From Actinomycetospora sp. (lineage in GTDB: Bacteria; Actinomycetota; Actinomycetes; Mycobacteriales; Pseudonocardiaceae): DNA of 15,857 bases. How positions within the stretch are numbered: the first letter of the stretch is position 1; each line of letters opens with the position of its first letter. Below, piece after piece: positions 1,938-6,274 of the stretch. Where the stretch lies: contig JAICLN010000043.1 in the NCBI GenBank assembly GCA_025925615.1, positions 1 through 15,857 of the forward strand. Direction: 5' to 3'. The translations under genes were made by a program, and so were the position numbers. The notes beneath the pieces are model-generated. The model made no database searches, was not told the DNA's origin, and saw only the letters and a list, made by a program, of their open reading frames with translations.

Positions 1938-2365
1938 CGGCTCGGGCGTTCGTACCGAATGTCGGTCGGTCGAGGACGGCCGGCAGGCGATGGTCGCCTC
2001 AGCGTTGGGCCGGCTCCGCGGCGTGAAGAGCCACTCCGTCGGGACGGTGCCGGCCGAGCCTTTGGGCAGTCGCTGGCGGTTGGTCCGGAGAGTGCCGGGC
2101 TGTGCTCAGTGGCGCTGGGCAGCGAGTCGGCCCGTTTGTTCTCCGGCGGCCCGAAGCCCTTTGGGCGGCCAGATAGGGTCGAGGAGATCGACGCCGCGGG
2201 CGCGGCTCCCCCGCGAAACTGCTCGACGGTTGTCCCGCCCGTCTGACCACTGGTCTCAGTCTTGGTCTCAGTCGTCCCGGTCCGCCCAGGTTCGTGCGTC
2301 GCGTGCGGGCGCGGCGGACCGTGGTCCGCGCCGCCGTAACCCGTCGTGTACGGGCCGACCTACAG
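1938..2365. other. Gene-free right part of the element relic
   Basis: I see no convincing coding region here: reading frames on both strands are Arg/Pro/Gly-rich and lack family motifs. It holds a small hairpin (GCCC-TTT-GGGC near 2155-2165) and the right-hand pair of 12-bp repeats at 2251-2270. It should also contain the YihY promoter. An excisionase gene might be expected next to this end but none is recognisable. Confidence 0.5.
2251..2270 (+). repeat. Right pair of 12-bp direct repeats (putative integrase arm sites)
   Basis: TGGTCTCAGTCT is followed by TGGTCTCA, matching the left pair at 199-218 in 19 of 20 positions and in the same orientation. It lies about 95 bp inside the right att copy. 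Its presence at both ends and nowhere else I noticed supports a role as the second arm-binding site of the integrated element. Confidence 0.6.
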
Positions 2366-2422
2366 CTTGAAAGCGGACGTACCGAGAGCTACCCGGGGGT
2401 TCGAATCCCCCCGCTTCCGCCA
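2366..2422 (+). repeat. attR-like orphan 3' half of tRNA-Ser
   Basis: The sequence starts in the anticodon loop (CTTGAAA) and runs through the T-arm and the acceptor 3' strand to discriminator G2419, followed by an encoded CCA (2420-2422). No matching 5' half precedes it, so it is not a functional tRNA. The encoded CCA is missing from the intact upstream gene. This suggests that this copy is the original host 3' end, displaced when an element carrying its own 3' half recombined in. The variable arm here has a C-C mismatch, consistent with decay. Confidence 0.85.
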
Positions 2423-2434
2423 GCGCGCCGTCCC

Positions 2435-2749
2435 TCAGTGGACGAGCTTGAGCCCGACGACGCAGGCGACGATCCCGGCCAGGAACACCACCTTGAGCGT
2501 CGTGATCGACTCGTCGCCGGTGGCCATCGCGTAGGCGACGGTCGCGACGGCGCCGATCCCGACCCACACCGCGTAGGCGGTCCCGGTCGGCAGCGAGCGC
2601 ATGGCGTACGCCAGGCCCGCCATGCTCGCGATGAGCCCGGCGGCGAAGACGAGCAACGGGGAGATCCGCGAGAAGCCGTCCGCCTTGCCGAGGGCGGTCG
2701 CCCAGACGGCTTCGAGGACACCGGACACGACCAGGACGACCCACGCCAT
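2435..2749 (-). CDS. sugE: Guanidinium exporter, SMR family (Gdx/SugE type)
   Basis: A 104-residue small multidrug resistance protein with four membrane helices. The essential Glu13 lies in VSGVLEAVWATALGK, followed by Trp16 and Lys22, then SMAGLAYAMRSLP and the Gdx-type signature GTAYAVWVGIGAV (about 56-68). The protein ends GLKLVH, much as E. coli SugE does. Characterised Gdx proteins export guanidinium in exchange for protons as antiparallel dimers. The ATG at 2749 is preceded by AGGGG six bases upstream. A guanidine-III riboswitch directly precedes the gene and independently supports guanidinium as substrate. The reading frame stays open upstream into the TetR gene, but that extension is not credible. 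The stop lies 12 bp from the orphan tRNA-Ser 3' half. Confidence 0.95.
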   Translation of the reverse strand: MAWVVLVVSGVLEAVWATALGKADGFSRISPLLVFAAGLIASMAGLAYAMRSLPTGTAYAVWVGIGAVATVAYAMATGDESITTLKVVFLAGIVACVVGLKLVH

Positions 2750-2751
2750 GA

Positions 2752-2760
2752 CAGACCCCT
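2752..2760 (-). promoter_or_regulatory. Shine-Dalgarno of gdx with predicted anti-SD pairing
   Basis: On the minus strand AGGGG (2760-2756) runs directly into TCTG, ending three bases before the ATG. GGTCTG (2757-2752) is perfectly complementary to CAGACC (2785-2780) inside the riboswitch aptamer. That CAGACC contains most of the 3' strand of aptamer helix P1. Ligand-bound P1 and SD sequestration would therefore be mutually exclusive, which predicts a translational ON switch. The complementarity is seen directly; the mechanism is inferred. Confidence 0.5.
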
Positions 2761-2762
2761 GA

Positions 2763-2807
2763 GGCTGCCGTCTTGTCGTGGTCTGGGTACGGCGCCGCTC
2801 GTCCAGG
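2763..2807 (-). ncRNA. Guanidine-III (ykkC-III) riboswitch
   Basis: Read on the minus strand, the leader contains CCTGGACGAG, GGCGCCGTACCCAG and ACGACAAGACGGC in order. These match the conserved blocks of the structurally characterised Thermobifida fusca guanidine-III aptamer as I remember it (GGACGAG, GCGCCGUACCC, GACAAGACGGC). CTGG pairs with CCAG to form P1, with the change from the CCGG pair kept complementary. GCCGT pairs with ACGGC to form the pseudoknot. The aptamer ends only a few bases before the gdx Shine-Dalgarno. It should sense free guanidinium and switch on the exporter. Confidence 0.92.
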
Positions 2808-2815
2808 AGCCCTCC

Positions 2816-2844
2816 GTGCGGAACGCTCGTGATCAGGCTGTCAA
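2816..2844 (-). promoter_or_regulatory. Candidate promoter of the gdx transcript
   Basis: A perfect -35 hexamer TTGACA lies on the minus strand at 2844-2839. Seventeen bases further the -10 position (2821-2816) reads CCGCAC, a poor match. The spacing would place the transcript start near 2809, right at the 5' edge of the riboswitch, which supports the assignment despite the weak -10. Confidence 0.35.
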
Positions 2845-2876
2845 GCGACCCCGCCCCCGGCAACGATTGGTGCGCC

Positions 2877-3572
2877 TCATCTCCCGTCCGACGGCGGATG
2901 CAGGGCGTCGACGCCGGCGAGGGCGAGGTCGATCCCGGCGAGGAACTGCTCCCGGTCGTCGTGCTCAGCCATCTGGCCCGCGACGGTCCGGGTGAACGGC
3001 CAGTCCTCGGGGTCCAGCTCCTCCCACGTCGCCGCCATGGCGCCGAGCGCGTCCGCACGGTCGACGCCGGGCCCGAGGACCTGGGCGTTCGCGGCGTTCT
3101 GGGCCGCCGCGCCGAGGATGTACTGCACGAGCACCGACGCCACCGTGAACCACTCGCCCCGGGGCACGCCCAGGGCGCGGACCTGCCGGCCGATGCTCTC
3201 GAAGATCCGTGGTGCCGCCGCCTGCCAGGAGCCGGCCGAGAGCTGCGCCGCGACCCACGGGTGCTCGTCGATCGCGTCGAACAGCGCGAGCGCGACCGCC
3301 CGGATCCGCTCTCGCGGCGGCGACTCGGCGGAGGTGTCGACGCCGAGAGCGGCGCCGACGACGGCGTCCGTGGCCGCCTCGAGCAGCTCGCCCTTGTTGG
3401 CCACGTGCCAGTAGATGGCCCCGGGCCCCGTCGCGAGGTGGTCGGTGAGCGTCCGGAACGTCAACCCGACCGCTCCCGTGGCGTCGAGCAGTTCGACGGC
3501 GGCCTCGACGATCCGCTCGCGAGTGAGCGCGTCGGTGCGCCGTGGTGACCGACGGCGCGTCTGTGGTGGCAC
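2877..3572 (-). CDS. TetR/AcrR family transcriptional regulator
   Basis: A 231-residue protein from the GTG at 3572. The N-terminal HTH spans about residues 15-65 (LTRERIVEAAVELLDATG, then LTFRTLTDHLATGPGAIYWHV with NKGELLEAA), the typical TetR DNA-binding fold. The rest is the helical ligand-binding and dimerisation domain. The frame is open far upstream, but that part lies antisense to the monooxygenase gene and is a shadow. GTG3572 begins the first stretch that looks like a TetR N-terminus and has GGAG just upstream. The gene is divergent from the FAD monooxygenase at 3663 across a 90-bp region with two inverted repeats, so it most likely represses that gene and itself and responds to a substrate of the enzyme. 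Confidence 0.9.
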   Translation of the reverse strand: MPPQTRRRSPRRTDALTRERIVEAAVELLDATGAVGLTFRTLTDHLATGPGAIYWHVANKGELLEAATDAVVGAALGVDTSAESPPRERIRAVALALFDAIDEHPWVAAQLSAGSWQAAAPRIFESIGRQVRALGVPRGEWFTVASVLVQYILGAAAQNAANAQVLGPGVDRADALGAMAATWEELDPEDWPFTRTVAGQMAEHDDREQFLAGIDLALAGVDALHPPSDGR

Positions 3573-3629: not shown

Positions 3630-3662
3630 CGGTACCCCGGCCCGTCCGTCGAAGGAGTCACC

Positions 3663-4814
3663 ATGAACACCTCGGTCACGATCATCGGCGCCGGCCTCGG
3701 CGGACTCGTCCTCGCCCGCGTCCTGCACGTCCACGGACTCCCGGTCACGGTCTACGAGGCGGAACCCTCCCCGACCTCGCGCGCCCAGGGCGGGATGCTC
3801 GACATCCACGAGGAGAACGGCCAACGGGCCCTCGAGGCCGCCGGACTCACCGCGGAGTTCCGCGGCCTGATCCTCGAGGGCCGCGCGGCCATGCGGGTCC
3901 TCGACCCGGCCGGCACCGTCCTGCTCGACGTCCCCGACACTGCAGCTGAGCACGCCGATAGGGGGGCAGGTGGTCGCCCCGAGGTGCAGCGCGCCGAGCT
4001 GCGTAGCCTCCTGCTCGACTCCCTGCCCGAGGGCACCGTCCGCTGGGGCGGCAAGGTCAGCGGGGTGCGTCCCCTCACCGGAGGGCGCCACGAGGTCGAG
4101 TTCGCCGACGGCACGAGCGTCACCACCGACCTGCTCGTCGGCGCGGACGGGGCCTGGTCGCGGGTCCGGCCGCTGCTCTCGGAGGCGACGCCGGCCTATT
4201 CCGGCCACTCCTTCGTCGAGACGTGGCTCCACGACGGGGACACCCGGCACCCCGCCGCCGCGGAGGCGGTCGGCGGCGGGTCGCTCATGGCGCTCGCGCC
4301 GGGCAAGGGCATCCAGGCCCACCGCGAGAGCGGCGGCACCCTGCACACCTACGTCGCGCTGGCCCGGTCGGAGGACTGGTTCGCCGGGATCGACTTCACC
4401 GATGCGGCGGCGGCCACCGAGCGGATCGCGCAGGAGTTCGAGGGCTGGGCCCCGGAGCTCACCGCGCTGATCACCGACAGTGACACGGCTCCGGTCCTGC
4501 GCACGCTCACGACGTTGCCCATCGGGCACCGCTGGGACCGGGTGCCGGGCGTGACCCTCGTCGGCGACGCCGCCCACCTCGCGCCGCCGAACGGCGAGGG
4601 TGCCAACCTGGCCATGGAGGACGGCGCCGAGCTCGGCCAGGCCCTGGCCGCACATCCCGACGACGTCGAGGCCGCGCTCGCCGGGTACGAGGCGGCGATG
4701 TTCCGCCGGGGGGCCGCGGCCGCCACCGACGGTGAGGAGCTCTACGAGCTCATGTTCGGCGACGACACCCCCCACCGCCTGATCGCGATGTTCACCCGGG
4801 AACCGGCACGGTGA
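3663..4814 (+). CDS. TetX-like FAD-dependent monooxygenase (class A flavoprotein)
   Basis: A 383-residue protein of the p-hydroxybenzoate hydroxylase fold. The FAD-binding GxGxxG motif is at 9-14 (IIGAGLGGLVLAR) with the ribose-binding Glu in VYEAEPS. GGMLDIHEENGQRALEAAGL (43-62) closely resembles the equivalent GGTLDLH region of TetX. The DG motif is at 161-169 (ADGAWSRVR) and the GD motif at 301-309 (GDAAHLAPP), followed by GEGANLAMEDGAEL. Such enzymes use NAD(P)H and O2 to hydroxylate aromatic or polyketide substrates; TetX inactivates tetracyclines. The start ATG at 3663 has AAGGAG five bases upstream. Divergence from a TetR gene suggests substrate-induced detoxification. The true substrate cannot be read from sequence, and tetracycline is only one possibility. 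Confidence 0.9.
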   Translation: MNTSVTIIGAGLGGLVLARVLHVHGLPVTVYEAEPSPTSRAQGGMLDIHEENGQRALEAAGLTAEFRGLILEGRAAMRVLDPAGTVLLDVPDTAAEHADRGAGGRPEVQRAELRSLLLDSLPEGTVRWGGKVSGVRPLTGGRHEVEFADGTSVTTDLLVGADGAWSRVRPLLSEATPAYSGHSFVETWLHDGDTRHPAAAEAVGGGSLMALAPGKGIQAHRESGGTLHTYVALARSEDWFAGIDFTDAAAATERIAQEFEGWAPELTALITDSDTAPVLRTLTTLPIGHRWDRVPGVTLVGDAAHLAPPNGEGANLAMEDGAELGQALAAHPDDVEAALAGYEAAMFRRGAAAATDGEELYELMFGDDTPHRLIAMFTREPAR

Positions 4815-5725: not shown

Positions 5726-6274
5726 ATGTCGCAGCGTCCGATCGAACACGGGACCCACGGCAACCACGGCAACGGGCACGGCCACGGGAACGGCCACGGC
5801 AACGGCCATGGGAACGGCCATGGCAACGGCCATGGCAACGGCCACGAGGGTGGTCACGGCAACCACGGCAACCACGGCAACCACGGCAACCACGGCAACC
5901 ACGGGCACCCGGGCGGGAACCACCACCCCGGCCACCCGCACCACCCCCACCACCCGGGCGGGAACCACCACCCCGGCCACCCGCACCACCCCCACCACCC
6001 GGGCGGGAACCACCACCCCGGCACGGGCGGCGACTGGGGCCACGGCAAGCACGGCGGTCACGGCAAGGACTGGGGCCACGGCAAGGGCGGCGACTGGGGG
6101 CACGGCAAGCACGGCGGTCACGGGAAGGACTGGGGCCACGGGAAGGACTGGGGCCACGGGAAGAACCACAGCAAGGACTGGGGCCACGGGAAGAACCACG
6201 GCAAGGACTGGGGCCACGGGAAGAACCACGACGGGGGTCACGGCCAGGGCCACGACCAGGTGATCCACCACTGA
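5726..6274 (+). CDS. His/Gly-rich low-complexity repeat protein
   Basis: A 182-residue protein with about 51 His (28%) and still more Gly, no Cys, and very few hydrophobic residues. After MSQRPIEHGTH it has runs of GNGH and then five GNH units. Next come two and a half copies of a 15-residue unit beginning PGGNHHPGHPHH, and finally a C-terminal region of DWGHGK and KNHxKDWGHGK units, ending HDQVIHH. No signal peptide or membrane segment is seen. It should be disordered and able to bind Ni, Zn, Co or Cu through imidazoles, by analogy with His-rich metal-storage proteins such as Hpn; this is inference. ATG5726 follows GAGAGGAAA at a suitable distance. The frame is open far upstream, but that part is antisense to the preceding gene. 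Third positions are mostly C or G, as in real genes here. Confidence 0.72.
   Translation: MSQRPIEHGTHGNHGNGHGHGNGHGNGHGNGHGNGHGNGHEGGHGNHGNHGNHGNHGNHGHPGGNHHPGHPHHPHHPGGNHHPGHPHHPHHPGGNHHPGTGGDWGHGKHGGHGKDWGHGKGGDWGHGKHGGHGKDWGHGKDWGHGKNHSKDWGHGKNHGKDWGHGKNHDGGHGQGHDQVIHH
5909..6022 (+). repeat. 45-bp tandem repeat within the His-rich gene
   Basis: Two identical 45-bp units (5909-5953 and 5954-5998) and a 24-bp partial third (5999-6022) encode the PGGNHHPG... block. Identity at the DNA level, including third positions, indicates recent in-frame duplication, so copy number probably varies between strains. Shorter repeats flank it: 12-bp GNGH and 9-bp GNH units on the left and 18-bp GHGKDW-type units on the right. 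Confidence 0.9.

Follow-up and report, generated by a model that had tools for sequence, protein, structure and literature searches.

Guanidine-III riboswitches (ykkC-III) are found mainly in Actinobacteria and are predicted to free the Shine-Dalgarno sequence upon binding, as stated in the available part of PMC12186494. The same text, citing Richards and Belasco (2021), also reports that guanidine-III protects mRNA from RNase E. The roles of residues E13, W16, S42, Y59, and W62 have been described in the transporter Gdx-Clo, and W16 is conserved in Gdx and is Gly or Ala in Qac, according to the accessible text of PMC7695847. On the side of degradation, 9FEK and 7ESR/7OI1 are the guanidinases of Nitrospira inopinata and Synechocystis in the accessible portion of PMC11410670. 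The riboswitch class and the gene family are already known, as are their association and general mechanism. A literature search that lacked the key primary papers found no description of the Actinomycetospora leader or of the strand-exchange detail discussed below, so no priority is claimed.

The DNA analyzed here is a stretch of 15,857 nucleotides from Actinomycetospora sp., referred to as the window. An earlier note had proposed a guanidine-III riboswitch directly upstream of a Gdx-type exporter gene (Table 1). This proposal is supported by the covariance model, the covariation of P1 and the pseudoknot, the same arrangement before gdx in 11 of 17 congeners, the similarity to Gdx-Clo, and W16. 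The sequence evidence thus supports a guanidine-III aptamer before a Gdx-type exporter gene, with guanidine binding and export as putative functions. Accumulating guanidine probably acts through this riboswitch to switch on translation of a guanidinium/proton antiporter of the Gdx type. With this locus, an Actinomycetospora genome joins the known set of bacteria equipped to sense, and probably to expel, guanidine; nothing known is overturned.

Table 1. Features of the leader and of the gene that follows it (window positions; all on the minus strand).
Feature	Position	Strand	Basis or remark
Guanidine-III aptamer, full Rfam match	2761..2827	-	RF01763, 37.5 bits, E 7.5e-5
5' hairpin (Rfam model), weak in the window	about 2808..2827	-	bounds approximate, from sequence; one non-standard pair in the cmscan alignment
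P1 5' strand CUGG	2803..2806	-	sequence
Pseudoknot 5' strand GCCGU	2789..2793	-	sequence
P1 3' strand CCAG	2783..2786	-	sequence; compensated relative to Rfam CCGG/CCGG
Pseudoknot 3' strand ACGGC	2767..2771	-	sequence
Predicted competing hairpin CCACG-CA-GACGG / CUGUC-UG-CGUGG	2741..2781	-	MFE -19.7 kcal/mol; inferred OFF state
Shine-Dalgarno-like AGGGG	2756..2760	-	read from sequence
gdx, 104-aa SMR transporter, guanidinium-exporter type	2435..2749	-	PF00893; Gdx-Clo 6wk5; E13, W16, S42, Y59, W62

The aptamer and its distribution

Searching the whole window with cmscan (Rfam 15, curated cut-offs) gave two matches, a tRNA and Guanidine-III. The latter (2827 to 2761, minus strand) lies 1.5 bits above its cut-off (37.5 vs 36), and its E-value refers to 15,857 bases x 4227 families; the covariance-model check named in the earlier note therefore returned a match. 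In the organism's own assembly (3.52 Mb in 382 contigs, completeness 59.8%) the locus is the sole Guanidine-III match at E <= 0.001, with E 3.9e-6. The aptamer ends 11 nt from the gdx start codon on the same strand, and ACGAG comes after P1 in the minus-strand reading. The span first given for the element, 2750 to 2807, includes the conserved core together with the spacer that leads to the start codon, and misses the 5' hairpin. A scan of positions 2300–3000 found neither promoters nor terminators.

The pairing of the aptamer was compared in 138 pattern-read loci of the order, of which 28 came from searches of the own assembly and relatives, 30 from a survey of the order, and 80 were picked among the matches listed. 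P1 is fully paired in 133 of them, with the types CCGG/CCGG (117), CUGG/CCAG (10), GCGG/CCGC (5), and CCCG/CGGG (1); the remaining five are imperfect. All 10 CUGG/CCAG loci belong to Actinomycetospora, namely the window and nine congeners. Among the gdx loci of the window and 11 congeners, CUGG/CCAG occurs in 10 of 12, CCGG/CCGG in one, and CCCG/CGGG in one, always paired. The compensated P1 claimed for the window, fully compensated relative to Rfam, is therefore real and inherited in the genus. The pseudoknot, also claimed to be intact, joins 2793–2789 with 2771–2767 in the window and has all five pairs in 125 of the 138 loci. Its types in the 129 loci with an assigned start include GCCGU/ACGGC (71), GUCGU/ACGAC (14), GGCGU/ACGCC (12), and ACCGU/ACGGU (11).

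A Guanidine-III match is present in 14 of 17 Actinomycetospora congeners. It exceeds the cut-off in 10 and falls below it, at 34.1–35.4 bits, in G001, G003, G014, and G015; G004, G008, and G010 are the three congeners without a match. In 11 of the 17 the match lies 12 to 19 nt upstream of a gdx relative of 68–78% identity. The gdx genes of G004 and G008 (54% identical) have no Guanidine-III nearby even at E 1; locus L073 contains 247 nt upstream of its gdx. In the order survey, 190 of 298 genomes contained a match, 185 of them over the cut-off. The aptamer pattern, which is a pattern match and not a model score, was found within 160 nt upstream in 76 of 80 named gdx loci, those kept from a search with more matches; one of the four misses, L216, has only 12 nt of upstream sequence. 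The riboswitch-gdx association is ordinary, since it rests on 190 of 298 order genomes with a match and on 76 of 80 gdx loci with the pattern.

The putative exporter gene and its surroundings

The gdx gene runs from a start codon at 2749–2747 to a stop codon at 2437–2435. Its product belongs to the SMR family (PF00893, 72.2 bits vs a Pfam cut-off of 23.7). The best NCBIfam family is the SugE equivalog NF008512, to which the protein is not assignable, as its 96 bits lie below the curated cut-off of 126. The best solved structures are 6wk5 (Gdx-Clo, E 8.5e-21) and its close variant 8vxu (E 3e-20). Structures of EmrE rank after Gdx-Clo, with E 7.9e-6 or weaker and at most 29.4 bits vs 77.4. In an alignment of 12 sequences including the window, E13, W16, S42, Y59, and W62 are invariant and position 22 is variable. 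Glu13, Trp16, and Lys22, named in the earlier note, all stand at those positions, but Lys22 is not diagnostic: K21 of Gdx-Clo corresponds to G21 of the window protein, and position 22 varies.

The 11 congener loci that have both the riboswitch and gdx showed none of 12 other window proteins in the vicinity of gdx, and the riboswitch-gdx unit therefore travels without the window neighborhood. On one side, a tRNA-Ser(TGA) at 54–139 (54–138 by cmscan; tRNA-Ser by ARAGORN) is followed by an ORF carrying a partial phage-integrase catalytic domain (216–773), a BrkB/YihY gene (879–1937), and a second, incomplete copy of the 3' half of the tRNA (2366–2420) located 14 nt from the gdx stop. These four features together resemble the termini of a small integrated element that has degraded. 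On the other side lie a divergent TetR-type regulator and FAD monooxygenase (2877–3530 and 3660–4814), for which TetR and Tet(X) are the best NCBIfam names, both far below cut-off. Neither gene turned up in the vicinity of gdx in any of 13 congener loci, of which two are shorter than the others. A Gly/His/Asn-rich repeat frame at about 5760–6274 contains 9-, 30-, 45-, and 60-nt tandem repeats and has no Pfam match.

A predicted competing hairpin at the start codon

The leader is likely a translational ON switch, in which the 3' pseudoknot strand is modeled to pair either within the aptamer or with the start region. In the absence of guanidine, this strand and the preceding linker would fold onto the region before and at the start codon (2781–2741). 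Guanidine would favor the pseudoknot GCCGU/ACGGC, so that the 3' strand would be withdrawn and the start region freed. The guanidine-bound leader may additionally shield the mRNA from RNase E, and Gdx would then export guanidinium.

In fold predictions, all made without pseudoknots, the window hairpin pairs the linker and most of the 3' pseudoknot strand with CUGUC, codons 2–3, and a portion of the start codon. Its z-score against shuffled spacers was -1.85 and -2.16 in two runs. A pairing of AGGGG with the aptamer sequence CUCCU, read by eye, was set aside; the local fold predicts pairing of GACGG. In the first leader set the mean z was -1.32 (26 of 28 leaders folded), and in the named gdx set, which overlaps it in species, the mean was -1.25 (n=76). 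A larger set was derived from the 138 loci by leaving out nine without an assigned start (129), removing duplicates (122), and excluding starts beyond 40 nt, which gave 108 distinct leaders; the last filter removes all ACGCC leaders, of which there were 12 before. The mean z of the 108 is -1.52, with 42 leaders below -2 and five above 1. In 91 of the 108 predicted folds the 3' pseudoknot strand has three or more of its five bases paired downstream, and in 85 most of the start codon is paired; the Shine-Dalgarno sequence is at least half paired in only 56. The hairpin signal is absent in L002, L007, L011, L015, L018, L021, and L022 and in three congener guanidinase leaders.

Partner swaps among 22 dissimilar leaders gave totals as low as the native one in 2 of 5000 permutations for spacers and in 0 of 5000 for aptamer arms. 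The effect per leader was modest, with a mean z of -0.37 and the own spacer in the best tenth for six of the 22. When strands were exchanged between classes, the own strand was best for ACGGC and ACGAC leaders and not for ACGGT; in the class-swap table, ACGCC gives the 16 ACGGT leaders a slightly better fold than their own strand does. The swap totals suggest that the aptamer arm and the start region have coevolved, although part of the signal may still reflect shared ancestry.

Accessibility predictions varied with the length of coding sequence. With 12 nt, 100 of 108 leaders open at the SD-to-AUG region, but this direction is biased, as access tends to rise in any case when the core is withheld. 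With 40 nt, the region opens in 68 of 108 leaders (p 0.0039) and in 16 of the 22 dissimilar ones (p 0.12), and the Shine-Dalgarno sequence alone closes on average, from 0.49 to 0.40. For the window itself the SD-to-AUG region closes with 40 nt, from 0.35 to 0.22, which is opposite to the ON-switch model. A cruder run on 21 leaders, in which the core was misplaced in L014, L016, and L019 and starts were misassigned in L006, L015, and L018, revealed no consistent shift.

Several other explanations bear on these data. The low score of 37.5 bits and the weak 5' hairpin with its one non-standard pair might suggest a chance match or a decayed aptamer; against the E-value of 7.5e-5, the intact core, and a compensated P1 at the same place in nine congeners, such an origin is hardly credible. 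It is somewhat easier to imagine, and still very improbable, that the transporter is a generic quaternary-ammonium (Qac-type) pump standing after a riboswitch by happenstance. The NCBIfam name of its best family is quaternary ammonium SugE transporter, and quaternary-ammonium resistance has been reported for some Gdx proteins in the available part of PMC12186494. Nevertheless, the window protein has the W16 that is conserved in Gdx and is Gly or Ala in Qac (PMC7695847, accessible text), it scores far higher with Gdx-Clo than with EmrE, and the same riboswitch class precedes a guanidinase-like gene in three congeners.

A more serious alternative, unlikely on present evidence, is that a genuine guanidine-binding aptamer works chiefly by blocking RNase E, and so on mRNA stability, rather than on ribosome access. 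The protection from RNase E reported in the part of PMC12186494 cited above and the ambiguous accessibility predictions speak for it. The aptamer arm and the start region, in contrast, pair better in total with their own partners, and a pure stability role needs no such thing. Translational control, with strand exchange as its putative mechanism, remains the preferred reading. The strand-exchange model in its wider form holds that Actinomycetota guanidine-III leaders carry a start-side decoy of the 5' pseudoknot strand, with one strand shared three ways and coevolving, and that P1 in Actinomycetospora was rewritten more than once with compensation; this generalization is tentative, with chances a little short of even. 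If true, it would give the guanidine-III class a defined strand-exchange expression platform, and would show rewriting of a P1 that is otherwise near-invariant. The leader comparison offers a concrete model of how guanidine-III may reach the ribosome-binding site.

Putative guanidine-linked genes and comparison with known systems

The congeners put the same kind of sensor before either an exporter or a guanidinase-like gene. In G001, G003, and G014, Guanidine-III precedes an arginase-family gene, and the solved structures that match it best are 9fek and 7esr/7oi1; the guanidinase-like ORF is listed in G001, and the same gene occurs in G003 and G014 at 99% identity. In these three genomes and in G010, no gdx relative exceeds 31% identity, but guanidinase relatives are present at 67–100%. 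G005, G006, G011, G012, and G013 have both gdx and guanidinase relatives, the latter at 58–65%; gdx and the guanidinase-like gene are arranged tail to tail in G006, G011, and G012. No guanidinase relative was found in the own assembly, which is about 60% complete. The earlier note had reported no guanidine or urea carboxylase in the window. None was seen there, and the urea carboxylase model TIGR02712 was over cut-off in 0 of 18 genus genomes, including the own assembly at 60% completeness; partial profile matches occurred in every genome and likewise in all 14 controls.

The G001 locus (L264, G001:C1:704500-710500) has Guanidine-III at 35.4 bits, below cut-off, before the guanidinase-like gene. 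Convergent with it is a Guanidine-I match, at 60.1 bits short of its cut-off of 63, followed by an ORF that resembles an APC-type permease by eye. This is possibly a locus for guanidine uptake and hydrolysis. Guanidine-I over cut-off is located just before guanidinase-like genes at G005:C1:136481-136595, G013:C1:624468-624572, and G010:C22:34296-34406. In one genome from another family of the order, Guanidine-I and Guanidine-III lie close together on opposite strands (L003:1246-1567), with the Guanidine-III side upstream of a guanidinase-like frame.

In four genomes Guanidine-III is located directly before a gene whose product, a membrane protein of 84-87 aa, belongs to NF047864, the CBU_0592 family of NCBIfam (loci L025/L270/L271 in G040, L131/L267/L277 in G075, L155/L268/L278 in G139, and L181/L269/L276 in G093). 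Three members score 44–53 bits and the fourth 43 bits. Among 200 genomes of the order, 17 had an NF047864 match, 15 of them over cut-off, and the riboswitch was just upstream in four of the 17 loci, three over cut-off and one at 35.8. The family is a candidate for a new guanidine-linked gene; the literature search found nothing under the name CBU_0592.

With regard to the systems described, the guanidinases 9FEK and 7OI1/7ESR have close relatives 3' of a Guanidine-III match in three congeners. Gdx-Clo (6wk5; PMC7695847, accessible text) and the window protein are alike in belonging to the SMR family and in E13, W16, S42, Y59, and W62; they differ in that the window protein has G21-K22 where Gdx-Clo has K21-Y22, and its transport is putative. 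The leader shares with the class RF01763 the core GACGAG, GUACC, and AAGAC, P1 and the pseudoknot, and an SMR exporter gene downstream, and it departs from the class in its P1, which is CUGG/CCAG instead of CCGG/CCGG and is compensated.
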